A stretch of 12,272 nt of DNA from the NCBI GenBank assembly GCA_946479405.1, contig CAMLGD010000088.1, positions 1 through 12,272 of the forward strand, given 5' to 3'. The position numbers and the translations under genes were made by a program. This document shows positions 848 to 11,400 of this stretch, piece by piece. How positions within the stretch are numbered: the stretch's first letter is position 1; each line of letters starts with the position of its first letter. The notes beneath the pieces were generated by a model. It was not told where the DNA came from. It saw nothing but the letters and a program-made list of their open reading frames with translations, and ran no database searches. The stretch comes from an uncultured Vogesella sp. GTDB taxonomy: Bacteria > Pseudomonadota > Gammaproteobacteria > Burkholderiales > Chromobacteriaceae.

Positions 848-898
848 TCGCCGCTAGGCGGGGCGGGTGACTGGTCCGCTATCTACGCGACAGCGCTG

Positions 899-945
899 AA
901 AAAGGTTGGCCGCAAGCCTGTATGGGCGTTGCGGCCAACCTTTTT
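899..945. terminator. Bidirectional terminator built from two GCGGCCAAC repeats
   Basis: A perfect 17-bp inverted repeat, 899-915 (AAAAAGGTTGGCCGCAA) with 929-945 (TTGCGGCCAACCTTTTT), encloses a 13-nt loop. It has A and T tracts on the two sides, so it can end transcription from the barrel gene (plus) and the 75-aa gene (minus). Each arm holds one copy of the dispersed repeat, at 905-913 and 931-939. Confidence 0.9.
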
Positions 946-973
946 CGTTATCGGGCGTAGTCCGCGTGCCTCG

Positions 974-1201
974 CTATACCAGTTGCCGGGCATGCCACTG
1001 CTGCAGATCGGCCGGAATGCCCAAGTCTTGCGGGCTGCCGAACGGCGGCCATGATGTTTCGCCAGCGGCGAGTGCCGCGGCGGCGGCTTCCGGGCTGGGG
1101 AAGGCGCCCAGTGCTTCGCCCTCATGCATGATGTGGTAGCTGCCATCGAGCGGCACGATCTCGAAGGGGCCATAGCGGGTGTCGTAGGTCCAGCATTTCA
1201 T
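974..1201 (-). CDS. Conserved hypothetical 75-aa protein
   Basis: The ATG is at 1201 and the TAG at 974-976. The sequence begins MKCWTYDTRYGPFEIVPLDG and has a central helix rich in Ala (FPSPEAAAAALAAG). It has no signal peptide or membrane segment. It is rich in aromatic and Trp residues (W4, and further Trp in the C-terminal half), with two predicted halves joined by a Ser-Pro-x-Glu-Ala segment. The start is fixed by a good ribosome site, GAGGAGG, 8 bases upstream on the minus strand. I recall similar small single-domain proteins annotated only as hypothetical in betaproteobacteria, and I cannot give a function. It is divergent from the NERD gene and shares the 899-945 terminator with the barrel gene. 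Confidence 0.7.
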   Translation of the reverse strand: MKCWTYDTRYGPFEIVPLDGSYHIMHEGEALGAFPSPEAAAAALAAGETSWPPFGSPQDLGIPADLQQWHARQLV

Positions 1202-1441
1202 GATGATGCCCTCCTCATCCTTGATGGTAGTCGTTGCGGCGTGCTTTATCGCATCGCTATCGCTGGGTGGGTACCACGCGGCTTGAGGCTCAAGGGCTGT
1301 AGCACGCCGGGTGGCAGGCAACGGGCGTGCCGCTAACGTTGAGCAGCGCAGTCGTGCCAGCCCTGCTTTATGGCAGGTAAATGTCATTGGCATATGCTTT
1401 AGGCCTATAATTTGGGCTCTGTTGTTATCGATGCACACGCC
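1202..1441. other. Divergent intergenic region between the 75-aa gene and the NERD gene
   Basis: No gene is supported in these 240 bases. They hold a short palindrome, CTTGAG-G-CTCAAG (1282-1294), an imperfect hairpin GCACGCC/GGCGTGC (1302-1308 with 1324-1330), and the -10-like hexamer at 1406-1411. Either hairpin could be an operator, but nothing in the sequence decides this. Confidence 0.4.
1406..1411 (+). promoter_or_regulatory. Candidate sigma-70 -10 box of the NERD gene
   Basis: A consensus TATAAT lies 30 bases before the ATG at 1442. No good TTGACA-like element lies 16-18 bases upstream, so the promoter is weak or activator dependent. The placement also argues against the upstream TTG at 1412 as a start, since that codon would fall between the -10 box and the transcription start. 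Confidence 0.45.
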
Positions 1442-2491
1442 ATGATCCTGAAAGAAAAAACCTTCACCGAAGCCCGCGACTGGAAGCAGGCCGCTGGGGA
1501 CGCCGCCGAAAAAGAGATGGCGTTTTATTTGCGGCGCTATTTTGGCGATGACGCGGAGGTGTTCATCCTCAACGATATCCGGCTGGAGATGGATGGCGAT
1601 GCGGCGCAGATGGACCATGTGCTGATTCACCCGGCTGGGCTGACCATCGTGGAAAGCAAGAGTGTGGCCGGCAAGCTGCAGATGAAGGCCGATGGAGAGT
1701 GGCTGCGCTGGTTCGACGACCGTTCCAGTGGCATGGCATCGCCGATTGTGCAGGCCCGGCTGCAGGCCGAGTTTCTTCGCAAATTTTTGCGTCGGATGGC
1801 CAAACAACCACAGGTGATTGATGCGCTGGCTATTGACTTCATGATTGCCATTTCCAGCCGTGGTCAGTTCATCCCGCCCAAGGGCGAAACAGTGGCGGAG
1901 GTATGCAAGGCTGATCTGGTGGGGGAGCGCATTCGCGCCAAAGTGGCGGGGGCGATGGCTTTCCCGGCACCGTATCGCAAGATACTGGGCGAGTATATGG
2001 CCAAGATGCACACGCCACGACAGGAGACGCAGTCGACTCCCTCTCTGACGCCAAGCACTGCGGTGCCGGCCAAGGAGCCAGCGCGCGAGTATGCTGCCAC
2101 GGTAGTGGAGGTGGTACTGGCCGAACCGGCGGTGCCGCTACGGCAGCAGGAGAAGACGCCGGGCTATCGCAATTTCGAGTTCATTGGTGACAAGTTGCGC
2201 AAGGTTGGCTTCCTCGACAAATTGTTGTCGTCCGAAGGTCCGCAAAAGCAGTATTTCACTTGCTGTAAGGGGTGTAGTTCACAGCTACTGGAGTTTCGCT
2301 ATGGCAAGTTCGGCTACTACCTGAAGTGTCGTGATTGTGGCGACAACACCAACATCAAGCTGGATTGTCGTCTGTGCCGGCGTCAGACCAAGCTGCGCAA
2401 GGAAGGGGATTTTTTGCTTGTGGAGTGTGCCGCGTGCCAGCTGTCCGAGTTGCTGCATCGCAACGATAGACCGTTGCCGGATCTGGACTGA
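1442..2491 (+). CDS. NERD (nuclease-related domain) protein with C-terminal zinc ribbons
   Basis: The protein is 349 aa. Residues about 15-125 match the NERD fold: the helix EKEMAFYLRRYF, strand VFILNDIRLE, the D58-H59 pair in QMDHVLIHPAG, and strand-borne E71-S72-K73 (VESKS). These give the D...ExK arrangement of restriction-endonuclease-like nucleases. Residues 195-240 are a Pro/Thr-rich linker. The C-terminus carries four CxxC pairs (C275/C278, C296/C299, C309/C312, C329/C332), read as two zinc ribbons of the topoisomerase-I type, likely to bind nucleic acid. It is cytoplasmic with no membrane segment. ATG 1442 (MILKEKTF) is preferred to an in-frame TTG at 1412 because a TATAAT overlaps the latter; no clear ribosome site is seen. 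NERD proteins are suspected to act in DNA processing, and no partner gene is present here. The substrate is unknown. Confidence 0.85.
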   Translation: MILKEKTFTEARDWKQAAGDAAEKEMAFYLRRYFGDDAEVFILNDIRLEMDGDAAQMDHVLIHPAGLTIVESKSVAGKLQMKADGEWLRWFDDRSSGMASPIVQARLQAEFLRKFLRRMAKQPQVIDALAIDFMIAISSRGQFIPPKGETVAEVCKADLVGERIRAKVAGAMAFPAPYRKILGEYMAKMHTPRQETQSTPSLTPSTAVPAKEPAREYAATVVEVVLAEPAVPLRQQEKTPGYRNFEFIGDKLRKVGFLDKLLSSEGPQKQYFTCCKGCSSQLLEFRYGKFGYYLKCRDCGDNTNIKLDCRLCRRQTKLRKEGDFLLVECAACQLSELLHRNDRPLPDLD

Positions 2492-2577
2492 TACCGGGTT
2501 CGCACTACACCACGGCGACAGCTCGCGGCACGGGTATTAGCCGGCCAGCGCGGGCGTGGCGCTGGTAACGGGAAAAC

Positions 2578-2607
2578 AAAAATGCGGCCAACGTTGGCCG
2601 CATTTTT
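2578..2607. terminator. Bidirectional terminator: perfect 30-bp palindrome of two GCGGCCAAC repeats
   Basis: Bases 2578-2592 (AAAAATGCGGCCAAC) and 2593-2607 (GTTGGCCGCATTTTT) form a perfect palindrome with no spacer. It has flanking A5 and T5 tracts and lies between the convergent NERD gene and the 42-aa gene. Two repeat copies, 2584-2592 and 2593-2601, abut head to head. Confidence 0.9.
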
Positions 2608-2626
2608 CCATGGGGCGAGCGTGTAC

Positions 2627-2755
2627 TTAATGCGGAATGATGATGGGCGGCATTTCTGTCGCATGTTTTTTCATGTGTTTGGCGGCCCGTTTTTCCTTGG
2701 CCGTGTGCATGGCCGGCTTCTTGGCCTCCTTGGTGCTATGTCTGGATTTACTCAT
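2627..2755 (-). CDS. Small basic Lys/Ala-rich protein, 42 aa
   Basis: The protein begins MSKSRHSTKEAKKPAMHTAK and ends EMPPIIIPH. About a quarter of the residues are Lys, with several His and Arg, then a hydrophobic PPIII tail. It has no signal peptide or Cys. The reading frame is short but well supported: the minus strand has AAGGAG 7 bases before the ATG at 2755, and a perfect bidirectional terminator starts 20 bases after the stop. The helical basic part could bind nucleic acid or ribosomes, but this is only inference from composition. I believe similar SKSRHSTKEAKKP-type small proteins occur in other betaproteobacteria as hypotheticals. It is convergent with the NERD gene. Confidence 0.7.
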   Translation of the reverse strand: MSKSRHSTKEAKKPAMHTAKEKRAAKHMKKHATEMPPIIIPH

Positions 2756-3023
2756 GGCGATGCTCCTTGACGCAGGCAGCCGCGGCGTCGCGTCGCAGCT
2801 TACCGCCAGTATAGATCGTGGTTGGCGAGATGGCGGCGGGCATGCTGTCGCTGTATTGCCGTCGCGGTGGAGGACTGATCGTGACTGTCGCTGCGGTGCA
2901 GGCGCAGTTGCCGACGGTGGCGGCATGGTTATGAGGCTAGGCGGTTGGGCTGGCGGCGGCGGGGCAGGAGCGTGCTGCGGATATGCTACGTGCTGAGGGG
3001 CTGCTGTGTGGGGGGCGGTTAGA
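2756..3023. other. Intergenic stretch without a supported gene
   Basis: 268 bases lie upstream of the 42-aa gene and downstream of the osmB-like terminator. A TATACT at 2808-2813 (minus strand) could be the -10 box of the 42-aa gene, without a recognisable -35. The open frames on the plus strand have no ribosome site and a composition unlike a protein. No repeats of note were seen. Confidence 0.4.
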
Positions 3024-3063
3024 TGGAAAACCGCCGCCACAGGGATGCGACGGCGGTTTTCCA
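3024..3063 (-). terminator. Hairpin terminator of the OsmB-like gene
   Basis: A perfect 13-bp inverted repeat, TGGAAAACCGCCG (3024-3036) with CGGCGGTTTTCCA (3051-3063), has a 14-nt loop. Read on the minus strand the second arm ends in TTTT, 14 bases beyond the osmB-like stop codon. The T tract is short and inside the stem, so efficiency may be moderate. Confidence 0.75.
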
Positions 3064-3076
3064 GTTGCCGGCGGGC

Positions 3077-3286
3077 TTACTTCACGCCGCCATTACCGAT
3101 AATGCCGCCGATGGCAGCACCACCTACGGTACCTGCGGTGCTGCCGTTGGTCAGTACCGAGCCGGCGATGCCGCCGACAGCCGCACCGATGGCTGCATTT
3201 TGCTGGCGTTGGGTCATGCCGGCACAGCCGGACAGCGAGGCAATCGCCAGTAGTACGAGGGTACTGCGGGTCAGGGTGCTTTTCAT
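3077..3286 (-). CDS. osmB: OsmB-like glycine-zipper lipoprotein
   Basis: The protein is 69 aa. Residues 1-20 are a lipoprotein signal with lipobox LSGC (C21). The mature part is a Gly/Ala-rich glycine-zipper pair: QNAAIGAAVGGIAGSVLTNG and then AAIGGIIGNGG. From memory this aligns along its length with E. coli OsmB (RNTAIGAGAG..., AVLTDGST..., GGAAVGGVIG), an osmotically and stationary-phase induced lipoprotein of unknown exact role. Length also agrees (OsmB is about 72 aa). The ribosome site is AAGGAG, 7-8 bases before the ATG at 3286. It stands alone with its own terminator. The family assignment is firm; the osmB symbol rests on similarity, not on shown orthology. Confidence 0.8.
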   Translation of the reverse strand: MKSTLTRSTLVLLAIASLSGCAGMTQRQQNAAIGAAVGGIAGSVLTNGSTAGTVGGAAIGGIIGNGGVK

Positions 3287-3447
3287 TGGGGGTCTCCTTC
3301 TAACGGCTGGTGTCAGGCAACCAGTGCACAGGTTTGCATCCGGTTATGACCGGGCGTGTTTTCGGCGAGTTCCGGTGACGCCGGGAGGTGTGGTGAGATT
3401 AGCTTTTTGGCATTGTTTGCTGCAAGGGGGTGATGCCAATGGCGATA

Positions 3448-3460
3448 AGGTTGGCCGCAG
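3448..3460 (-). repeat. Dispersed TGCGGCCAACCT repeat copy
   Basis: AGGTTGGCCGCAG, intergenic, is the exact reverse complement of 3616-3628. It has no T tract and no close partner, so it is not a terminator. Confidence 0.75.
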
Positions 3461-3511
3461 GGGGTGTAGGTGTGCCGGCGCGTGGGATTGGGTGGTAACT
3501 GCTGGCAGTTT

Positions 3512-3541
3512 TTGCCCATGACGGCCAACTTTTCCTATAAA
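3512..3541 (+). promoter_or_regulatory. Candidate sigma-70 promoter of the dienelactone hydrolase gene
   Basis: A -35-like TTGCCC (3512-3517), an 18-base spacer and TATAAA (3536-3541) would start transcription near 3548. That places the (GCCGC)6 repeat at the very beginning of a leader of roughly 105 bases. Confidence 0.5.
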
Positions 3542-3560
3542 GCGTTGTCTAGCGCCTGTC

Positions 3561-3590
3561 GCCGCGCCGCGCCGCGCCGCGCCGCGCCGC
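3561..3590 (+). repeat. (GCCGC)6 pentanucleotide tandem repeat
   Basis: Six perfect GCCGC units lie between the promoter candidate and the ribosome site of the dienelactone hydrolase gene. The repeat is outside the coding region as annotated, so changes in unit number would alter leader length and structure, not the protein. Confidence 0.9.
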
Positions 3591-3615
3591 GCTGGCGATA
3601 CTGCTGGCCTGCGTG

Positions 3616-3628
3616 CTGCGGCCAACCT
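3616..3628 (+). repeat. Dispersed TGCGGCCAACCT repeat copy
   Basis: CTGCGGCCAACCT lies in the leader of the dienelactone hydrolase gene, 26 bases before its ATG. It pairs perfectly with 3448-3460 in inverted orientation. Confidence 0.75.
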
Positions 3629-3654
3629 GTTCCCTTGCTGCAGAGGAGTTGTCG

Positions 3655-4536
3655 ATGAAGCCGCAATCCCGTCAGCCTGCCTTGTCGCAGGAGGTGATCA
3701 ATCTGTATGACCAATACACGCATCAGCCGTTGTCGCGCCGGGATTTTGTCGAGCGTCTGGCACGGCTGATGGGTGGGGTGGCCGCCGCCTATGCGGTGCT
3801 GCCGCTGCTGGAAAACAATTACGCGCAGGCCGAGGTGGTCGCCGCCGGCGACAGTCGGCTCAAGGCAGAGGATGTCCAGTTTGGCAGCCGTGCCGGGGTG
3901 CCGCTGAGCGGCTATCTGGTGCGCCCGACGGCGGGCGGCAGCTTGCCGGCGGTGGTGTTGATCCACGAAAACCGTGGGCTCAATCCGCATATCCGCGATG
4001 TGGCGCGGCGGCTGGCATTGGCCGGCTACTGGGTGCTGGCGCCGGATTATCTGTCGCCACTGGGTGGCACGCCGGCCGACGAGGATCAGGCGCGGGAGCT
4101 GTTTGCCAAGCTGGATGCGGCGATGACTGCGGATGTCTCGCTGGTGGCCTTGCGCTACCTGCAGGCGAAGGGCAACGGCAAGGTGGGGGCGGTGGGCTTT
4201 TGCTGGGGTGGTGGTCAGGTCGGGCAGATGGCGGTGCAGTTGCCGGATTTGCGTGCGGGGGTGATCTACTATGGCAGCCATCCGGCTGCGGCCGAGGTTG
4301 GCCGCATCCAGGCGCCGCTGTTGCTGCATCATGCCGGGCTGGATGATCGCATCAATGCCGGTATTCCGGCGTTTGAGACCGCGATGAAGGCCGCCGGCAA
4401 GCCGTACACCCTGTATCTGTATCCGGGGGTGAATCACGCCTTCAACAACGATACCAACGCGGCACGCTATAACCTGGATGCGGCCAACCTGGCCTGGCAG
4501 CGCACGCTGGATTTTCTGCAGCGGCAATTAGGCTGA
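3655..4536 (+). CDS. Dienelactone hydrolase family protein, probably Tat-exported
   Basis: The protein is 293 aa. An N-terminal extension holds a twin-arginine motif (S27-R28-R29-D-F-V) followed by a weakly hydrophobic Ala-rich stretch to about residue 58, consistent with Tat export. From residue 70 there is the alpha/beta-hydrolase fold of carboxymethylenebutenolidase: HENRG with E105, the nucleophile elbow GFCWGGG with C183, the acid in GLDD (D230/D231) and H261 in VNHAFNN. A Cys-Asp-His triad is the hallmark of dienelactone hydrolases, which open cyclic esters. E. coli YghX belongs to the same extended type. The true substrate is unknown, and no aromatic degradation genes are nearby. ATG 3655 is set by GAGGAG 6 bases upstream. 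Two repeat copies near the 3' end form a perfect 17-bp inverted repeat inside the gene. Confidence 0.85.
   Translation: MKPQSRQPALSQEVINLYDQYTHQPLSRRDFVERLARLMGGVAAAYAVLPLLENNYAQAEVVAAGDSRLKAEDVQFGSRAGVPLSGYLVRPTAGGSLPAVVLIHENRGLNPHIRDVARRLALAGYWVLAPDYLSPLGGTPADEDQARELFAKLDAAMTADVSLVALRYLQAKGNGKVGAVGFCWGGGQVGQMAVQLPDLRAGVIYYGSHPAAAEVGRIQAPLLLHHAGLDDRINAGIPAFETAMKAAGKPYTLYLYPGVNHAFNNDTNAARYNLDAANLAWQRTLDFLQRQLG
4295..4311 (-). repeat. Dispersed repeat copy, left arm of an intragenic 17-bp inverted repeat
   Basis: AGGTTGGCCGCATCCAG within the dienelactone hydrolase gene (codons for VGR) is the exact reverse complement of 4474-4490. Confidence 0.8.
4474..4490 (+). repeat. Dispersed repeat copy, right arm of an intragenic 17-bp inverted repeat
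   Basis: CTGGATGCGGCCAACCT within the dienelactone hydrolase gene (codons for LDAANL) pairs with 4295-4311 across 162 bases, in a different codon phase. Confidence 0.8.
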
Positions 4537-4549
4537 GCCGCCAGACGAC

Positions 4550-4583
4550 CACGGCGCCGGTAGCCATCGCCACCGGCGCCGTG
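4550..4583. terminator. GC-rich hairpin between convergent genes
   Basis: A perfect 12-bp inverted repeat, CACGGCGCCGGT (4550-4561) with ACCGGCGCCGTG (4572-4583), has a 10-nt loop. It extends by four more pairs (ACGA/TCGT) past one bulged C. Only a poor T tract (TCGTTTG) follows. It lies between the dienelactone hydrolase gene and the ComEA-like gene and probably terminates both. Confidence 0.65.
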
Positions 4584-4600
4584 TCGTTTGTGGCTTCGGC

Positions 4601-5035
4601 CTAGTTGTTGCCCTTGCCGTTGCCGCCCTTGTTGCCGCCGCCATTGCCGCCCTTGTTGCCACCTTTATTGCCCGGATTGTCATCCGTGGCGGTATCGGTT
4701 GGGGTGGCTTTCTTGGCCGGTACCGCCGGACTGACGCCCGGGATGGCTGGTGCGGTGCCGGAACGGGTGGTGACGCGCTGGCCATCAATGGTGAGATTGG
4801 CGCGCACGCGGTTCAGGTCGCCCTGTGTGATGCCCGGCAGGCCCAGCAGCTGCTTGCTGCTGGTAAAGGTGGTCGGGGTGCCGCTTGGCGGGTGGGTGGC
4901 ATCGTAGATGGTTTGCGCATCGGTCAGGCTGAAGCCGGCGTCCACCAGTTCCGCCACAGTGGCGGTGTTCAGCTCCAGCGCCATGGCTTGCCCGGTCAGG
5001 GCTAGCAGGGCCAGAGTCAGTAGGGATTTACGCAT
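4601..5035 (-). CDS. Secreted ComEA-like helix-hairpin-helix protein with Asn/Gly/Lys tail
   Basis: The protein is 144 aa. Residues 1-19 are a signal peptide (MRKSLLTLALLALTGQAMA). Residues 20-85 resemble the ComEA/T2SK helix-hairpin-helix domain: LELNTATVAEL, then a helix ending in IYDATH, then SSKQLLGLPGIT and DLNRVRANLTI. ComEA is a periplasmic DNA-binding protein that draws in DNA during transformation. The first hairpin is divergent (DAGFS in place of GIG) and the second reads PGIT. Residues 90-120 are a Pro/Thr linker; 121-144 is a low-complexity tail of N-K-G-G units, written by a degenerate codon repeat. The start at 5035 has AGGAG 7 bases upstream. It is 52 bases downstream of the Asp-rich gene and probably co-transcribed with it. 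It could be a diverged paralog with another role; binding of DNA is inferred. Confidence 0.7.
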   Translation of the reverse strand: MRKSLLTLALLALTGQAMALELNTATVAELVDAGFSLTDAQTIYDATHPPSGTPTTFTSSKQLLGLPGITQGDLNRVRANLTIDGQRVTTRSGTAPAIPGVSPAVPAKKATPTDTATDDNPGNKGGNKGGNGGGNKGGNGKGNN

Positions 5036-5087
5036 GGTGTACTCCTGTTGCGGGGGTACTGCAGTATAGCCTGCCGGGAAAACCGGC

Positions 5088-5354
5088 TTAGTCGTCGCCG
5101 CCCTTGCCGCCACCGTCATGGCCGCCGTGATCGTGGCCGCCTCTATCATGCCCATCGTTGCCGTCCCGGTCGTTGTCGTCTGCGGCGTCGTGCTGCCCAT
5201 CCTTGCCCTTGTCATCGTTGAGATCATGATTGGGGCCGTCGGCACTATCATCGACAACCGTGGTGCTGCCATCCGGATTGGTAGTCGTGTCCGCTGCCAG
5301 TACCGGCAGCGCGGGCAGGATCATCAGTGGCAGCAACCAGAGCAGTTTTTTCAT
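5088..5354 (-). CDS. Secreted acidic Asp/Gly/His-rich protein
   Basis: The protein is 88 aa. Residues 1-20 are a clear signal peptide (MKKLLWLLPLMILPALPVLA-A). The mature part starts with a Thr-rich DTTTNPDGSTTVVDD segment. From residue 42 it is almost entirely Asp, Gly, His, Asn and Lys, with no hydrophobic core, and it ends GGGKGGDD. It is therefore likely unstructured and exported to the periplasm or beyond. The H-D-H-G-G-H-D type runs suggest binding of divalent metal ions such as calcium, zinc or nickel; this is inferred from composition only. The ribosome site AAGGAG lies 6 bases before ATG 5354. It is the first gene of a probable pair with the ComEA-like gene. A PmrA/QseB-like direct repeat lies upstream. 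No named family is recognised. Confidence 0.75.
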   Translation of the reverse strand: MKKLLWLLPLMILPALPVLAADTTTNPDGSTTVVDDSADGPNHDLNDDKGKDGQHDAADDNDRDGNDGHDRGGHDHGGHDGGGKGGDD

Positions 5355-5425
5355 GGGGTTCTCCTTGGCATGGCCGCTATGGCGTTGCGATGTTGGCCGG
5401 GCGGGTTAGGGGTACGCACTACATT

Positions 5426-5461
5426 TTTATAGATAGTCCCCATGGCTTAACCATCGCTTAA
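5426..5461 (-). promoter_or_regulatory. Candidate promoter with PmrA/QseB-like direct repeat
   Basis: On the plus strand CTTAAC and CTTAAT (5446-5451 and 5457-5462) are separated by CATCG, giving GCTTAA units 11 bases apart. On the minus strand this is followed, 13 bases on, by TATAAA (5431-5426), about 72 bases before the ATG at 5354. The repeat covers the -35 zone, where no TTGACA-like hexamer exists, as in activator-dependent promoters. PmrA boxes are described as YTTAAK-N5-YTTAAK and QseB boxes as CTTAA-N6-CTTAA; this site fits at all but one position of the first. Confidence 0.45.
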
Positions 5462-5508
5462 TGTGCGCCGATTCGCTGCCGTTACCGCTTGGCGCTGTGG
5501 CAGAGCCG

Positions 5509-6408
5509 TCAGCCGCGCCGGGCGGCATCCAGCGTGGCAAACAGCTGGTGGATGCCCTGTTGCCAGCCGGGCAGCTGCAGGCCAAATGCCTGTTGCAGCT
5601 TGTGGCAATCCAGCACCGAGTACGCCGGGCGCAACGCCAGTTGCGGGTAGTCGGCGCTGGGTATCGGCTGCAGCCCGTCGCCGGGCAGGCTGATAGGCCA
5701 ACCCGCTTCGCGGGCAAGGCCGATCACGTACTCGGCGTACTGGTACCAGCTGGTGCAGCCCTGGGTGGCGACATGGTAGGTGCCGTATGGTTGTTCGTTG
5801 CTTAGCAGCGTGCGCGCCAGCAGCTGGGCGCTGACATCGGCCAGCAGGCTGGCCGGAGTGGGGGTGCCAAACTGGTCGTTCACCACTCGCAGCTGATCCT
5901 TGCTGGCCGCCAGTCGCAGCATGGTTTTGGCGAAGTTGTTGCCATGCACGCCGGCCACCCAGCTGCTGCGCAGGATGAAGTGGCGGCCGCCGGCGGCGCG
6001 CACCGCTTGTTCCCCTTGCCATTTGCTGTGGCCGTAGACCGACAGCGGTTTGGCGGTGTCGTCTTCGCGCCAGGCGGTCTCGCCGCTGCCATCGAACACA
6101 TAGTCGGTGGAGTAGTGCAGCAGCAGCGCATCGTTGGCCGCCGCCCACTCTGCCATGGCGCCCGGTGCGGCGGCGTTGATGGCATGAGCCAGATCGGCCT
6201 CGCTTTCCGCCTTGTCCACGGCGGTGTAGGCAGCAGCGTTGACGATCACCTCCGGGCGCTCCGCGTCCAGCCAGGCCAGCACCGCCTGGCGGCTGGCAAG
6301 GTTCAGCTGCCGGCGGCCCGGGCAGCGCAGCTCGCCAAACAGGCACAGCGCACGTTGCAGCTCGAAACCCAGCTGGCCGCTGGTGCCGGTTATCAGGATG
6401 CGGGGCAT
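5509..6408 (-). CDS. rmlD: dTDP-4-dehydrorhamnose reductase
   Basis: The protein is 299 aa, the usual length for RmlD (also called RfbD). This cytoplasmic enzyme reduces dTDP-6-deoxy-L-lyxo-4-hexulose to dTDP-L-rhamnose with NAD(P)H, the last step before rhamnose enters O-antigen or other glycans. Visible motifs are the Rossmann GTSGQLG (8-14), VNAAAYTAVDKAE (about 56-68), STDYVFDG (100-107), the catalytic Y125-G-H-S-K129 and SSWVAG. ATG 6408 (MPRILITG) starts directly at the Rossmann strand; the upstream sequence in frame is not conserved-looking. The ribosome site is a weak AAGAAAG. No rmlA, rmlB or rmlC is in the window, so the pathway genes are split. The gene is divergent from the vanZ-like gene. 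Confidence 0.92.
   Translation of the reverse strand: MPRILITGTSGQLGFELQRALCLFGELRCPGRRQLNLASRQAVLAWLDAERPEVIVNAAAYTAVDKAESEADLAHAINAAAPGAMAEWAAANDALLLHYSTDYVFDGSGETAWREDDTAKPLSVYGHSKWQGEQAVRAAGGRHFILRSSWVAGVHGNNFAKTMLRLAASKDQLRVVNDQFGTPTPASLLADVSAQLLARTLLSNEQPYGTYHVATQGCTSWYQYAEYVIGLAREAGWPISLPGDGLQPIPSADYPQLALRPAYSVLDCHKLQQAFGLQLPGWQQGIHQLFATLDAARRG
6133..6141 (-). repeat. Dispersed GCGGCCAAC repeat copy (rmlD)
   Basis: GTTGGCCGC inside rmlD is read on the coding strand as GCG GCC AAC (Ala-Ala-Asn). It is one of two copies with G in place of the preceding T. Confidence 0.6.
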
Positions 6409-6522
6409 GGCGCTTCTTTCTTGGTAATAAAGGGGTGGGCGGGCGGTTTTTGCATGCATGGCGGGTGCATGGCTGGCTGCCGCAGGGCACAATCCGCACA
6501 TTTTACGGTGCGGAGGGGTGCG

Positions 6523-6894
6523 ATGCCTGTTTCACGTTACTGGCTGCCGGCCTGGTTATGGTGGGTGCTATCGGTGTGGTTGCTGCTGCTCAAGCCGGCG
6601 GGGCCGCCATCCGGCATCCCGTATTTCGACAAGATAGGTCATTTCTGTCTGTTTTTATTGGGCGGTGTGCTGCTGGCCTGGCCACGGTTGCGGCAGGGCG
6701 TGCGTGGCGCAGCGCTGTGGCGGCCAAGCCTGCTGCTGTGCCTGGCATGGGCCGTTGGTTCCGAGTTGGCGCAAGGCTGGCTGACGGCCACGCGCTCGGC
6801 CGAGCTGGGCGATGCCCTCGCCGATATGCTTGGCGCCGTGGTAGGCATCATGTTGGCCGCATGCGCCATCGCCTGGCGGCAGCGGCAGGTGTAA
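6523..6894 (+). CDS. VanZ-like membrane protein
   Basis: The protein is 123 aa with hydrophobic segments at about 7-24, 38-55, 67-84 and 97-118, so four membrane helices are likely. It has the VanZ-family landmarks: DKIGHFCLF (residues 36-44) at the start of the second helix, and SELAQGWLTATRSAELGDALAD (80-101), where E81, Q84, R91 and the D of GDALAD correspond to the conserved E-x-x-Q...R...D pattern. VanZ confers low-level teicoplanin resistance in enterococci; chromosomal relatives in proteobacteria have no settled role and are thought to act at the cell envelope. ATG 6523 has GGAGG 6 bases upstream. It is 32 bases before pepP and likely the first gene of the long plus-strand operon. Confidence 0.85.
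   Translation: MPVSRYWLPAWLWWVLSVWLLLLKPAGPPSGIPYFDKIGHFCLFLLGGVLLAWPRLRQGVRGAALWRPSLLLCLAWAVGSELAQGWLTATRSAELGDALADMLGAVVGIMLAACAIAWRQRQV
6852..6861 (-). repeat. Dispersed TGCGGCCAAC repeat copy (vanZ-like 3' end)
   Basis: GTTGGCCGCA inside the vanZ-like gene is read as TTG GCC GCA (Leu-Ala-Ala), within 45 bases of the stop codon. Confidence 0.65.
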
Positions 6895-6926
6895 ACTGGG
6901 CGCCGTTTCGATTGCAGGTGTCTCGC

Positions 6927-8222
6927 ATGCACCAGAGTCTTGTAGACCGTCGCCAGCAGCTGCTGGCCGCCATTGGCGATGCTGTCGCCATTCTGCCCAC
7001 CGCGCCAGAAGCGGTGCGCAATGCCGATGCCCACTACCCCTATCGTGCCGACAGCCATTTCCTGTATCTGACCGGCTTTGCCGAGCCGGAGGCCGTGCTG
7101 GTGCTGGATGGCCGCCGCGGCAAGGCCATCCTGTTCTGCCGGGCCAAGAACCCGGATATGGAAATCTGGGAAGGCTTCCGCCACGGTCCGGACGCAGCTG
7201 CCGAAGCGTTTGCCTTTGACGAGGCCTACGCCATCGACGAGCTGGATCAGCGCCTGCCCGATTTGCTGGCCGATGTGCCGGCGCTGTACTGGCCGCTGGG
7301 CCGGACTGCCGTCTGGGATGCGCGGGTGGCTGGCTGGCTGGAGGCGGTGCGCGCCCGAGCCCGCTTCGGCGTGGATGCGCCGGCGCAGTTTGGCGATCTG
7401 CTGCCGCTGGTCGACGAGATGCGCCTGCTCAAGGACGAGCGCGAGCAGGCGATACTGCTGCGTGCCGGCCAGGTATCGGCCGAGGCGCATGTGCGCGCCA
7501 TGCAGACCACCCGGCCGGGCAAGTACGAGTACGAAATCGAGGCCGAGCTGCTGTATCACTTCGTGCGCAACGGTGCGCGTCAGCCGGCCTATGAGAGCAT
7601 CGTCGCCGGCGGCGGCAATGCCTGCACGCTGCACTATGCGGCCAACAATGCACGCCTGAACGACGGCGAGCTGCTGCTGATCGACGCCGGCTGCGAGTTC
7701 ATGGGCTACGCCGGCGATATCACCCGCACCTTCCCGGTGAATGGCCGCTTCAGCCAGCCGCAGCGCGACCTGTACGAGGTGGTGCTGGCGGCGCAGCTGG
7801 CGGCCATCGCCGCGGTGCGGCCGGGCGCCACGCTGGACGTACCGGCCGACGCCGCACTGCGTGTGCTGGTGCAGGGCATGCTGGATTACCAGCTGCTGCA
7901 GGGCAGCGTGGACGGTGTGATCGAATCCGGCGACTACCGCCGCTTCTACATGCACGGCATCGGCCACTTCCTGGGGCTGGACGTGCATGACGTCGGCCTG
8001 CGTCGCCCCGGCGGTCAGTGGCGGCAATTCCAGCCCGGCATGTGCACCACCATCGAGCCGGGGCTGTATGTCCGCCCGGACGATCGCGTGCCGGCGGCAT
8101 TCCACAATATTGGCATCCGTATCGAAGACAATGTGCTGGTCACCGCCACTGGCCATCACGTGTACACCGATGCGGCCCCCAAACGCATAGACGACATTGA
8201 GGCGCTGATGCAGGCCAGCTAG
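6927..8222 (+). CDS. pepP: Xaa-Pro aminopeptidase (aminopeptidase P)
   Basis: The protein is 431 aa, close to E. coli PepP (about 440). It is a cytoplasmic dimanganese peptidase that removes an N-terminal residue preceding proline. The N-terminal creatinase-like domain (1-165) includes NADAHYPYRADSHFLYLTGF. The pita-bread catalytic domain follows, with metal ligands D253 (LIDAG), D264 (YAGDITRTFP), H347 (HGIGHFLGLDVHD), E377 (TIEPGLY) and E400 (IRIEDNV). ATG 6927 is favoured over an in-frame GTG at 6918; only a weak GCAGG is seen upstream. It sits between the vanZ-like gene and ubiH with short gaps. The pepP-ubiH neighbourhood is the same as in E. coli. A repeat copy lies in the coding part at 7638-7646 and another touches the stop codon. 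Confidence 0.95.
   Translation: MHQSLVDRRQQLLAAIGDAVAILPTAPEAVRNADAHYPYRADSHFLYLTGFAEPEAVLVLDGRRGKAILFCRAKNPDMEIWEGFRHGPDAAAEAFAFDEAYAIDELDQRLPDLLADVPALYWPLGRTAVWDARVAGWLEAVRARARFGVDAPAQFGDLLPLVDEMRLLKDEREQAILLRAGQVSAEAHVRAMQTTRPGKYEYEIEAELLYHFVRNGARQPAYESIVAGGGNACTLHYAANNARLNDGELLLIDAGCEFMGYAGDITRTFPVNGRFSQPQRDLYEVVLAAQLAAIAAVRPGATLDVPADAALRVLVQGMLDYQLLQGSVDGVIESGDYRRFYMHGIGHFLGLDVHDVGLRRPGGQWRQFQPGMCTTIEPGLYVRPDDRVPAAFHNIGIRIEDNVLVTATGHHVYTDAAPKRIDDIEALMQAS
7637..7646 (+). repeat. Dispersed TGCGGCCAAC repeat copy (pepP)
   Basis: The copy inside pepP is read as GCG GCC AAC (Ala-Ala-Asn of YAANN). Confidence 0.6.
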
Positions 8223-8231
8223 TTGGCCGCA
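8222..8231 (-). repeat. Dispersed TGCGGCCAAC repeat copy at the pepP stop codon
   Basis: GTTGGCCGCA begins on the last base of the pepP TAG and fills half of the 21-base gap before ubiH. It is a single copy without hairpin or T tract. Confidence 0.75.
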
Positions 8232-8243
8232 GCGTAAGCAAGC

Positions 8244-9407
8244 ATGCAAGCAAACATTCTTCATTCCGATATCGTGATCGTGGGCGGTGGCCCGGTAGGG
8301 GCGCTGGCCGCCTTGCGCCTGAAGCAGGCCGGTCGCGATGTGTTGTTGATCGAGGCGCGCGCCAAGGATGCCCCGCTGCGCGATGCCCGCGCGTTGGCGC
8401 TGTCGTGGTACAGCCGCGAGCAGCTGGCCGCGGTGGGCGCCTGGCCGGATAGCCTGCCGGCTACCGATATCGACACCGTGCACGTGTCGCAGCAGGCCGC
8501 CTGGGGCCGCACGGTGATCAGCCGTGATGACCTGACGTTGCCGCACCTGGGTGCAGTGGTGGACTACCCGGCGCTAGCCGCCAGTCTGGGCGATGCGCTG
8601 CAGCAGCAGGGCGTGGCGGTGTGCTGGCAGCACAAGGTGACCGCAGTGCAGTCGCTGGCACGCTACGCCAGCCTGACGGTGGAGGATGCCGCCGGTCAGC
8701 GCCGCCAACTCACCGCACGGCTGGTGGTGCTGGCCGAAGGCGGCGCGCTGGCGGAAACCCTGCCAGGTATCCAGCGTCATGTGCACGATTATCAGCAGAG
8801 CGCACTGCTGGCCGAAGTGACGGCCAGCCTGCCGCACGGCAACGTCGCCTACGAGCGCTTTGCCGATGACGGCCCGTTTGCGCTGTTGCCGCACGGCGAA
8901 CGCATGATGCTGGTGTGGACGCGCACGCCGGCCGAGGCGCAACGGCTGCACGATGCAGACGAGGCCGCGGTGCTGGCCGAACTGCAGCAGGCGTTCGGCG
9001 AGCGCCTGGGTAGCTTCACTGCCATCGGCGAGCGTGCGGTGTTTCCGCTGCTGCTGCGCCAGCTCAACAGCGTGGTGTCCGGCCGGGTGGTGATGATCGG
9101 CAATGCCGCGCAGACCATGCACCCGGTGGCGGCGCAGGGCTTCAACTTGGGGCTGCGCGATGCGGTTGGCCTGACCGAGCTGCTTGCCGCCGCGGCCGAT
9201 CCGGGCGATGCCGCCGTGCTGCGCCGCTATGCCGCCCAGCGCCGCATGGACAGCCACGCGGTGGTGGGCTTTACCCATGGCTTGATCCGGTTGTTCGATG
9301 GTGCACATCCGCTGCTGAAGACGCTGCGCGGTGCCGGCATGAACATGCTGGACAGCCTGCCGCCGCTGCGCAAGCGCTTTGCCGGTCATCTGGTGTTTGG
9401 TGTGTAA
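8244..9407 (+). CDS. ubiH: Ubiquinone biosynthesis flavin hydroxylase UbiH
   Basis: The protein is 387 aa, of the UbiH/COQ6 class of FAD monooxygenases, which hydroxylate the aromatic ring of the ubiquinone precursor (2-octaprenyl-6-methoxyphenol C4 in E. coli). The N-terminal FAD motif is GGGPVGA (14-20), with the acidic end of strand 2 at E37. The second FAD motif is GNAAQTMHPVAAQGFNLGLRD (286-306), whose GNAAQ wording is typical of UbiH as against GDAAH of its paralogs. The middle DG motif reads AEGG (165-168), with Glu where Asp is usual. The protein is soluble and probably part of the Ubi complex. The ATG at 8244 is 21 bases after pepP, with only a weak AAGCAAG site, so translation may be coupled. 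It is followed by the second hydroxylase gene. Confidence 0.9.
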   Translation: MQANILHSDIVIVGGGPVGALAALRLKQAGRDVLLIEARAKDAPLRDARALALSWYSREQLAAVGAWPDSLPATDIDTVHVSQQAAWGRTVISRDDLTLPHLGAVVDYPALAASLGDALQQQGVAVCWQHKVTAVQSLARYASLTVEDAAGQRRQLTARLVVLAEGGALAETLPGIQRHVHDYQQSALLAEVTASLPHGNVAYERFADDGPFALLPHGERMMLVWTRTPAEAQRLHDADEAAVLAELQQAFGERLGSFTAIGERAVFPLLLRQLNSVVSGRVVMIGNAAQTMHPVAAQGFNLGLRDAVGLTELLAAAADPGDAAVLRRYAAQRRMDSHAVVGFTHGLIRLFDGAHPLLKTLRGAGMNMLDSLPPLRKRFAGHLVFGV

Positions 9408-9428
9408 ACTGCCGTAAACAGAGCGCGT

Positions 9429-9446
9429 GCGGCCAACGTTGGCCGC
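9429..9446. repeat. Perfect 18-bp palindrome of two GCGGCCAAC repeats inside the operon
   Basis: GCGGCCAAC (9429-9437) and GTTGGCCGC (9438-9446) abut between ubiH and the next hydroxylase gene. Unlike the copy at 2578-2607 there is no T tract, so it should not terminate fully. It could reduce downstream transcription or stabilise the upstream RNA. Confidence 0.85.
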
Positions 9447-9467
9447 CAAAGTTGCCATTAGGGAATC

Positions 9468-10622
9468 ATGAGCACTTCATTTGATGTCGTAATCGTCGGT
9501 GGCGGCCTGGTCGGTGCGGCGCTGGCGCTGGCGCTGGACAAGCAGGGCCGCCGCGTGGCGCTGGTGGAAAGCCAGCAGGCGCGCTTTGACGGCTTGCAGC
9601 AAGGCTGGGATGCGCGCGTGTACGCGATCAGCCCGGCCAATCGCCGCTTTATCGAGAGCCTGGGGGTGTGGCCGGACATGAGCCGCATCGGCACCATCGC
9701 CGGCATGGATGTGCGCGGTGATCAGGGCGGGTGCATTGCTTTCTCCGCTGCCGATGCCGGTGCCGAGGCACTGGCGTGGATTACAGAAAACCGCTGGCTG
9801 CTGGCCGCGTTGTGGCAGCAATTGCAAACCGCCAGCGGCGTCGAACTGGTGGAAGGCGTGCGGCCAACCGGTCTCCGGCATTCGCCTAAATCCGCGGAAT
9901 TGCAGTTGGAAGACGGCCGCGTGCTGCAGGCCCGGCTGCTGGTCGGCGCCGATGGTGCTAACTCCTGGGTGCGGCAGCAAAGCGGCATTTCCGCCGAGGT
10001 GAAGCCGTATGGTCAGAGTGGCGTGGTGGCCAACTTCGCCACCGAGCTGCCGCATGGCAATATTGCGCGGCAATGGTTCCTGGGCGATGGCATCCTGGCC
10101 TGGCTGCCGTTGCCGGACAATCGCATCTCCATCGTGTGGTCCACGCCGCAGCCGGAACCGCTGCTGGCACTGTCGGCGGAACGTTTTGCCGCCGTGGTGG
10201 CCGAAGCCGGTGGGCATGCGCTGGGCAAGCTGGAAGTGCTGACGCCGGCGGCGGCTTTCCCGTTGCGGTTGCTGACGCCGCAGCACGTGATTGCCGAGCG
10301 CGTGGCGCTGGTGGGCGATGCCGCGCACACCGTGCATCCGCTGGCCGGGCAGGGCGTCAACCTGGGCTTTCAGGACGCTGCCCGCTTGGCCGCTATCATC
10401 GCCGAGGGCAAGGATCCGGGCGAATGGCTGGCACTGCGCCGTTACGAGCGCGGCCGTAAAGAGGCGGTACGCACCATGCAACTGACCTGCGACACGCTGT
10501 TTGGCCTGTTCCACGCCAAGCAGCTGCCGGGCATTGCCTGGCTGCGCAATACCGGCCTGAACCTGACGAATCGTCTGCCGCTGATCAAGCGGCAGCTGGC
10601 CCGCCACGCGGTGGGCTTTTAA
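9468..10622 (+). CDS. UbiH/UbiF/UbiI/COQ6-family FAD hydroxylase
   Basis: The protein is 384 aa and a paralog of the preceding gene. Motifs are GGGLVGAA (11-18), ARVYAISP (49-56), GADGANSWVR (160-169) and GDAAHTVHPLAGQGVNLGFQD (283-303), all standard for ubiquinone flavin hydroxylases. The C-terminal helix NRLPLIKRQLARHAVGF is also typical. Position three in pepP-ubiH-X matches E. coli ubiI (visC), which makes the C5 hydroxylation; but betaproteobacterial enzymes of this class differ in regioselectivity (UbiI, UbiF, UbiL and UbiM exist), so no symbol is given. ATG 9468 is preceded by a weak AGGGA. The gap to ubiH is 60 bases and holds a repeat palindrome; the gap to dsbC is 16 bases. Confidence 0.9.
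   Translation: MSTSFDVVIVGGGLVGAALALALDKQGRRVALVESQQARFDGLQQGWDARVYAISPANRRFIESLGVWPDMSRIGTIAGMDVRGDQGGCIAFSAADAGAEALAWITENRWLLAALWQQLQTASGVELVEGVRPTGLRHSPKSAELQLEDGRVLQARLLVGADGANSWVRQQSGISAEVKPYGQSGVVANFATELPHGNIARQWFLGDGILAWLPLPDNRISIVWSTPQPEPLLALSAERFAAVVAEAGGHALGKLEVLTPAAAFPLRLLTPQHVIAERVALVGDAAHTVHPLAGQGVNLGFQDAARLAAIIAEGKDPGEWLALRRYERGRKEAVRTMQLTCDTLFGLFHAKQLPGIAWLRNTGLNLTNRLPLIKRQLARHAVGF
9859..9868 (+). repeat. Dispersed TGCGGCCAAC repeat copy (second hydroxylase gene)
   Basis: The copy is read in a fourth codon phase as (G)TG CGG CCA AC(C), coding Val-Arg-Pro-Thr. Confidence 0.65.
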
Positions 10623-10638
10623 CTGAAAAAGGATTGCA

Positions 10639-11400
10639 ATGAAGCTCCGTCTTCCCCAGTTGGCCATCATTCCGCTCTGCCTGTCGCTACTTGCTTGCAC
10701 CGCGTCTGCGGCCGATGAAACGCCGGATTCGGTGCGCGCCAACTTCAAGAGCAAGTTCCCGCAGCATGACATCACCAGCGTGCAGCCGGCGCCGGTAGCG
10801 GGGCTGTACGAAATCGTGGTGAAGATGAAGCGTGGCGCGCGCGAGGAATACACCATCGTCTATGCCGATGCCAAGGTGGAGCATCTGCTGACTGGCGACC
10901 TGATCGATACCAAGACCCGCCAGAGCCTTACCGAAGGCCGGTTGGAAGAGTTGAATCAGGTGAAATTCGACTTCAACGCCCTGCCGCTGGACAAGGCGAT
11001 CAAGGAAGTGCGCGGTAAGGGCGAGCGCAAGCTGGCGGTGTTCTCCGATCCGGATTGCCCGTTCTGCAAGCGCCTAGAGCAGGATGCGTTGTCCAAGCTG
11101 GATAACGTCACCATCTACACTTTCCTGTACCCGCTGGCACAGCTGCACCCGGATGCGCCGCGCAAGGCCGCGCAGATCTGGTGCAGCAAGGATCGCGCCG
11201 CAACCTGGACCGCGGTGATGCGTAACGGTGCCCAGCTGCCGGCTGGCAATGCCAACTGCAGCACCCCGCTGGCCGAGTTGGCCGCATTGGGCGAAAAACT
11301 GGGGGTAGCCGGTACCCCGGCACTGTTCCTCCCCAATGGGCGGATGATCTCCGGTGCCGTGCCGGTGGAAACCATCGAAGCCGCATTCAAGGCCAAGTAA
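10639..11400 (+). CDS. dsbC: Thiol:disulfide interchange protein DsbC
   Basis: The protein is 253 aa. It is a periplasmic disulfide isomerase that reshuffles wrong disulfides and is kept reduced by DsbD. Residues 1-24 form a signal peptide; cleavage is probably after TASA, although L-L-A-C20 is also close to a lipobox, so lipidation is possible. Residues 27-100 make the DsbC dimerisation domain (SVRANFKSKFPQHDI, then LYEIVV). The thioredoxin domain has the active site C140-P-F-C143 in DPDCPFCKRLE, a second Cys pair C182/C207, and the cis-proline G-T-P227. The active site is CPFC rather than E. coli CGYC. ATG 10639 has AAAAAGGA 5 bases upstream. It lies 16 bases after the hydroxylase gene and 7 before the TonB-like gene, hence in the same operon. 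Confidence 0.93.
   Translation: MKLRLPQLAIIPLCLSLLACTASAADETPDSVRANFKSKFPQHDITSVQPAPVAGLYEIVVKMKRGAREEYTIVYADAKVEHLLTGDLIDTKTRQSLTEGRLEELNQVKFDFNALPLDKAIKEVRGKGERKLAVFSDPDCPFCKRLEQDALSKLDNVTIYTFLYPLAQLHPDAPRKAAQIWCSKDRAATWTAVMRNGAQLPAGNANCSTPLAELAALGEKLGVAGTPALFLPNGRMISGAVPVETIEAAFKAK
11277..11286 (-). repeat. Dispersed TGCGGCCAAC repeat copy (dsbC)
   Basis: GTTGGCCGCA inside dsbC is read as TTG GCC GCA (Leu-Ala-Ala). Confidence 0.65.

Follow-up and report, generated by a model that had tools for sequence, protein, structure and literature searches.

The 12,272-nt stretch of an uncultured Vogesella sp. analysed here (contig CAMLGD010000088.1, hereafter the window) contains 16 copies of the 9-mer GCGGCCAAC, a word which very probably marks DNA for uptake during natural transformation, both in Vogesella and in part of the Chromobacteriaceae. 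The best explanation seems to be a new branch, with CCG as its core, of the kind of system formed by a DNA uptake sequence (DUS) and the minor pilin ComP, with a predicted ComP that lacks a second disulfide. The original prediction had proposed a new uptake-sequence dialect or another genome-wide signal word, and the first of these gains support in relatives of the window's organism, in which the genome-wide tests were made. There, the word is abundant on nearly equal strands, enriched between genes in V. indigofera, split into lineage dialects, low in number on a plasmid, and accompanied by a ComP-class pilin; the uptake function itself is deduced from sequence.

Direct counting in the window finds seven copies on the + strand and nine on the - strand. 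All 16 start at the positions first reported, and the recount likewise gives a T before the core in 14 copies and an extension to TGCGGCCAACCT in six. GCGGCCAAC is the window's commonest 9-mer (16 copies), followed by its own overlap word TGCGGCCAA with 14 and the next one with 8. An order-4 Markov model, for which the training sequence was the window with its motif copies, expects 1.6 copies of GTTGGCCGC and 0.37 of GTTGGCCGCA, of which 16 and 14 are observed.

In Vogesella-type relatives, whole-genome counts lie far above those of a control word. In seven of seven Vogesella-type genomes, among them one metagenome-assembled genome labelled Neisseriaceae, GCGGCCAAC occurs 2,449-3,490 times (0.7-1.0 per kb), about 40-120 times as often as the reversed control word (27-86 copies), and both strands carry almost the same number, with 1,311 to 1,188 as the largest difference. 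The same count gives 58-227 copies in eleven other Chromobacteriaceae-type genomes and Aquaspirillum, and none in one Neisseriaceae genome. Among 79 related loci, the word ranks first or second of all 9-mers, N runs not counted, at each of the nine Vogesella-type loci (11-21 copies), and occurs only 0-2 times in the other 70; at the V. indigofera locus it is second with 15, its own overlap word TGCGGCCAA being first with 16. With the degenerate word GTTGGCCGMR, 61 family genomes separate into 22 carriers (868-3,107 copies), 38 low genomes (53-245 copies, at most some 3.4-fold the number of their control word), and the intermediate genome G056 (294 copies); control words number 23-123. G056 is a relative of G055 and G057, its ComP keeps the loop, and it looks like a genome that is losing the word. 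Chromobacterium and Aquitalea have a similar base composition, yet show no excess of the size seen in Vogesella, and no carrier exists among 80 Neisseriaceae genomes sampled from a larger group (0-117 copies of GTTGGCCGMR each).

Judged by its letters, the word of the window belongs to a set of three or more related dialects found in some Chromobacteriaceae; sister words in relatives differ at the last two bases only (GTTGGCCG-CA, -AG, and -AA). An order-4 Markov scan, covering 80-221 kb per genome for the main set and 40 kb for G048 and G049, places GTTGGCCGCA on top of the over-represented words in V. indigofera, GTTGGCCGAG in C. luteus, and GTTGGCCGAA in JH1-16, the uncultured Aquitalea G011, G054, G055, and G057. 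The -AG form is top in G048 (32 observed, 0.93 expected) and the -AA form in G049 (15 observed, 0.36 expected), and among the matches listed the endings are AG in 100 of 100 for G048 and AA in 48 of 50 for G049. In about 40-47 kb of G009 the word is not on top (5 observed, 0.4 expected), and no such word leads in 60-141 kb of C. subtsugae, Aquitalea LB_tupeE, P. yongneupense, and G050. Position +10 is A in the Vogesella and AA forms and G in C. luteus and G048. The two bases preceding the 10-mer are A (76%) and G (58%) in V. indigofera, A (74%) and G (62%) in G048, and A (70%) and G (63%) in G055; this AG is weak in C. luteus, JH1-16, G011, and G057, and at its first base in G049. All three words carry CCG at +6 to +8, so that the original prediction was right in noting the absence of the CTG core of Neisseria dialects, and the corresponding CTG form GTTGGCTGCA has 6 copies (3.4 expected) as against 327 perfect words in 566 kb of Vogesella. 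Beside GTTGGCCGAA, G011 has a second over-represented word, GTTTGCCGAA (36 observed, 2.1 expected), possibly a second dialect in this genome; a second dialect in one genome is also described for Simonsiella muelleri in a section of PMC3630211.

A search for minor pilins, suggested together with the original prediction, reveals a pilin of one class in all 22 carriers. This class is tied to ComP via two members and one profile: in sequence comparisons, the C. luteus pilin and a 13-row profile both match ComP (PDB 5hz7, 2m3k, and 2nba) best, and the best structure match of the V. indigofera pilin model is Neisseria ComP, which is closer than other type IV pilins. The PF16732 profile exceeds its curated cut-off in 19 of 20 genomes and in none of 14 controls; as other minor pilins and non-carrier genomes match it as well, it is weak evidence alone. 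The block ALLENA..F.E.Y...YK..WP.LP. is shared with Neisseria ComP. In contrast to the latter, the aligned pilins have no cysteine in beta1 and hence no second disulfide, only the C-terminal cysteine pair being conserved, so that they do not show the two-disulfide DD region, which according to a passage of PMC4906244 is defined by this second disulfide. ComP hits exist in 35 non-carrier genomes; the loop comparison covers 29 of these in a table and G013 separately, but not G028, G031, G033, G052, and G053.

The DUS of Neisseriaceae are described in parts of Frye et al. (2013; PMC3630211) as eight dialects, all with CTG at +6 to +8 and A at +10, with two semi-conserved preceding bases (AG in most dialects), and with about 940-5,900 copies per genome of one 10-mer that is the top over-represented word. 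With 868-3,490 copies per carrier genome (9-mer or degenerate 10-mer) and its place on top in stretches of 40-221 kb from eight carriers, the present word behaves similarly. It also resembles DUS in its length of ten bases, its density, its occurrence on both strands, its inverted pairs between genes, its lineage dialects, and the presence of ComP. The preceding AG of most DUS dialects is clear in V. indigofera, G048, and G055 and weak elsewhere; in Neisseria notation the word reads AG-GTTGGCCGCA. Unlike Neisseriaceae DUS, the word has CCG as core and a G at +5 that is new with respect to the dialect strings, ends in G instead of A in C. luteus and G048, and occurs in Chromobacteriaceae but in none of the 80 sampled Neisseriaceae genomes. 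The word was not filed as a Neisseriaceae DUS because of the missing CTG core and because the pilin lacks the DD disulfide. In register, AGGTTGGCCGAA has 9 of 12 bases in common with the nearest DUS dialect string (shuffle P 0.009). For the two remaining forms the figure is 8 of 12 (P 0.065-0.085), and the 10-mers alone give P 0.18-0.65; this match is only suggestive. The uptake signal sequence (USS) of Pasteurellaceae is likewise a short, dense, self-marking word, with the core GCGG according to a section of PMC12616744, and the Vogesella form contains these letters. However, the AG and AA dialects do not, for which reason this likeness looks accidental.

The placement of the copies, determined with gene calls from a home-made codon model, bears on two other explanations. 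A V. indigofera stretch of 200 kb holds 142 copies, 60 of them between genes, where intergenic DNA is 12.2% of the sequence. Enrichment is lower in three other samples, at 2.5 in the uncultured Aquitalea, 1.2 in C. luteus, and 1.3 in JH1-16, the last two values being unreliable either way given intergenic fractions (16 and 23%) that look too high. Close inverted pairs number 19 in V. indigofera (18 of them intergenic), 13 in C. luteus (5), 11 in JH1-16 (9), and none in the uncultured Aquitalea; the coefficient of variation of the gaps is 0.70 in V. indigofera, where chance gives about 1, and 0.83, 0.99, and 0.78 for the remaining samples, without a formal test. That the word is a mere by-product of hairpin terminators sharing a stem, together with favoured AAN or LAA codons, is scarcely credible. 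Two of the three palindromic pairs in the window do fold far better than shuffles, the coding copies of V. indigofera lie mainly in three frames (44, 17, and 13 of 81), and intergenic enrichment is small in two of four samples, where gene calls are poor, but 19 close inverted pairs are too few for 142 copies, both gene strands are used, and Chromobacterium and Aquitalea of like base composition lack a comparable excess. Thus, confinement to one codon phase or to terminators, which the original prediction had named as contrary outcomes, is not found, several phases being used in relatives, if unevenly. A site orienting replication or recombination, such as Chi or KOPS (FtsK-orienting polar sequences), would fit thousands of non-palindromic copies at 0.7-1.0 per kb and is nevertheless very improbable: sites of this type are strongly skewed locally to one strand, whereas four stretches of 140-200 kb show no such skew (78 to 64 in V. 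indigofera, and 44/61, 17/31, and 68/42 in three others), and neither intergenic enrichment in V. indigofera nor inverted pairs fit. On these placement and strand data, Chi/KOPS-like sites, codon use, and terminators were rejected as sole causes.

An explanation that is improbable, though somewhat less so, is that some other process acting on the whole genome maintains the word in high number, as a site of repair, methylation or a nucleoid protein, with no role in uptake; HIP1 of cyanobacteria is an example of a highly iterated word. Abundance alone names no function, the role as DUS being a prediction, and comparison of sequences indicates that single-base changes gain and lose copies between species: at ten alignable sites of the window, V. 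oryzae has one-base variants at four and is intact at six. In contrast, the last two bases differ by lineage, all 22 carriers possess the ComP-class pilin, the full word is not palindromic, and a plasmid holds only about twice the chance number, although a site used throughout the cell should function there too. This Vogesella plasmid, XCS3, has 7 copies in 150 of its 164.5 kb (2.6-3.8 expected), as compared with 142 in 200 kb of the V. indigofera chromosome (9-15 expected). DUS in general are scarce in foreign and mobile DNA. Contig G054:C1, possibly a plasmid, has 1 copy in 100 kb versus 56 in 80 kb of G054:C3; three ORFs (open reading frames) of G054:C1 that were looked up code for an IS5-type transposase, a helicase, and an aminotransferase. 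On this 183-kb contig, which is nearly devoid of the word, the IS5-type transposase region shares 89% DNA identity with a region of the XCS3 plasmid.

Some observations are less clear-cut. The ComP-type pilin class is present in most non-carriers too. When one-mismatch forms are counted per position as a ratio to the expected number, with some tiny counts, there is no clear excess at +6 to +8 either in the AG dialect (0.5, 1.3, and 0.7) or in the AA dialect (0.6, 0.7, and 1.3), both on small counts, while +1 reaches 9.4 (AG) and 4.2 (AA), +10 reaches 3.4 in AG, and +4 reaches 8.1 in AA, mostly from the second word of G011. Low ratios are also found, however, at +2 and +3 in AG (1.5 and 0.9), at +2, +9, and +10 in AA (1.3, 1.2, and 1.5), and from +2 to +7 in Vogesella (0.5-1.3), where +8 gives 2.1, +1 3.2, and +10 5.8. 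As low-excess positions extend beyond +6 to +8, the core position failed as a clean argument, and the probability given to the reading of a DUS-ComP system older than the Neisseriaceae (see below) was lowered slightly for this reason. Prophage depletion failed as a clean test as well: seven prophage-portal stretches hold 63 copies in 140 kb versus 193 in 240 kb of control, but this difference is driven by G054, where the word lies at the same positions in two of the three depleted stretches, which are thus near-copies, and the Vogesella portal loci in G059 and G060 have normal numbers. The weak phage-portal matches in G060 (L243) and G059 (L244), with their normal word density, are perhaps old domesticated elements.

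If the word is an uptake signal, the type IV pilus would bind it in free DNA through a minor pilin of ComP type, and pilus retraction together with the ComEC channel would bring the bound DNA in, so that DNA of the own kind would be taken up preferentially. Recombination of tagged fragments would then spread and maintain the word over the chromosome, and plasmids would remain close to chance numbers. Carriers do not form one clade on the PepP tree, which requires four changes, at least three of them forced by supported branches (G054 is not in the tree); this history is compatible with a single ancestral origin followed by losses as well as with repeated gains. We tentatively suggest, with doubt slightly outweighing belief, that the DUS-ComP system predates the Neisseriaceae and was present in their common ancestor with the Chromobacteriaceae, that the CCG branch has persisted in Vogesella, Crenobacter, and a few relatives but disappeared from Chromobacterium and most Aquitalea, that CTG is only the choice of one branch, and that CCG is read by a ComP without the DD disulfide via its beta1-beta2 loop.

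ComP and DUS are the best-studied receptor-word pair for selective DNA uptake, and a CCG word would break a base rule thought fixed for such tags in Neisseria. Inner DUS bases matter more than peripheral ones in N. meningitidis (as stated in part of PMC3868556), the binding mode of ComP is called enigmatic in a passage of PMC12061091, and the Pasteurellaceae uptake receptor was still called unknown in one of 2025 (PMC12616744). For solving how the word is read, the present system would offer a contrast consisting of a sister clade whose core differs, three dialects at the word's edge, word-free (Aquitalea) or word-poor (G056) lineages, and a simpler ComP, testable in environmental bacteria instead of pathogens. 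A full-text search, with supplements outside its reach, found no paper pairing an uptake sequence with Vogesella, Crenobacter or Aquitalea, and among the matches listed for papers containing one of six 10-mers no title concerns uptake.

In the window, the ORF reading agrees with the nine intergenic and seven coding copies of the original prediction, with two borderline cases (3618 and 8222), and the coding contexts read by eye from the translations are AAN (three), LAA (two), VGR (one), and RPT (one), as proposed. Copies 1 (905..913, -) and 2 (931..939, +), both intergenic, face each other as GTTGGCCGC and GCGGCCAAC in a hairpin with flanking A and T runs (897..947; -38.9 kcal/mol, z -8.3), which is probably the terminator after the OmpA-like gene. 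Copies 3 and 4 lie head to head after the NERD-domain gene as the perfect palindrome GCGGCCAACGTTGGCCGC between A and T runs (2584..2601; fold z -4.3); both are intact in V. indigofera, the other eight loci not being alignable. The list of the consensus scan includes neither the hairpin at 897..947 nor this palindrome. Copies 13 and 14, also head to head, form a palindrome without T run between two FAD-monooxygenase (UbiH-type) genes (9429..9446), which folds no better than shuffles (z -1.0); both are intact in four of nine related loci and one of the two in V. oryzae, four loci not being alignable. Copy 5 is intergenic (3450..3458, -). Copy 6 (3618..3626, +) is barely within the longest ORF of the dienelactone-hydrolase-like gene (3613-4536), at its start, and probably lies upstream of the true start; copy 12 (8222..8230, -) overlaps pepP by a single base, the last one of its stop codon. 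The remaining copies are coding: copy 7 (4297..4305, -; VGR), copy 8 (4480..4488, +; AAN), copy 9 in the RmlD-like gene (6133..6141, -; AAN), copy 10 in the VanZ-like gene (6852..6860, -; LAA), copy 11 in pepP (7638..7646, +; AAN), intact in eight of nine related loci, copy 15 in the second FAD monooxygenase (9860..9868, +; RPT), and copy 16 in the DsbC-like gene (11277..11285, -; LAA). V. oryzae differs by one base at copies 7, 11, and 15.

The genes of the window are of housekeeping type, coding for OmpA-like, NERD, dienelactone hydrolase-like, RmlD-like, VanZ-like, DsbC-like, and TonB-like proteins, PepP, and two UbiH-type monooxygenases. The window's PepP has its nearest relative in Vogesella oryzae (93% identity) and falls inside the Vogesella branch (support 100/98). 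In the carrier genome G054, a PepP gene (G054:C3:400209-401499) is split by stop codons, due to assembly errors or decay. A plasmid search with the window's ubi genes returned mostly ubiquinone hydroxylases and other FAD monooxygenases among the best 20 of 28 records. The ORF at 4601-5272 (-), probably read from an inner start, encodes a small, secreted-looking protein with a Gly/Asn/Lys-rich tail; it matches the helix-hairpin-helix profile PF12836 weakly, short of the cut-off (E 0.063), and we take it to be loosely like the DNA-binding competence protein ComEA.
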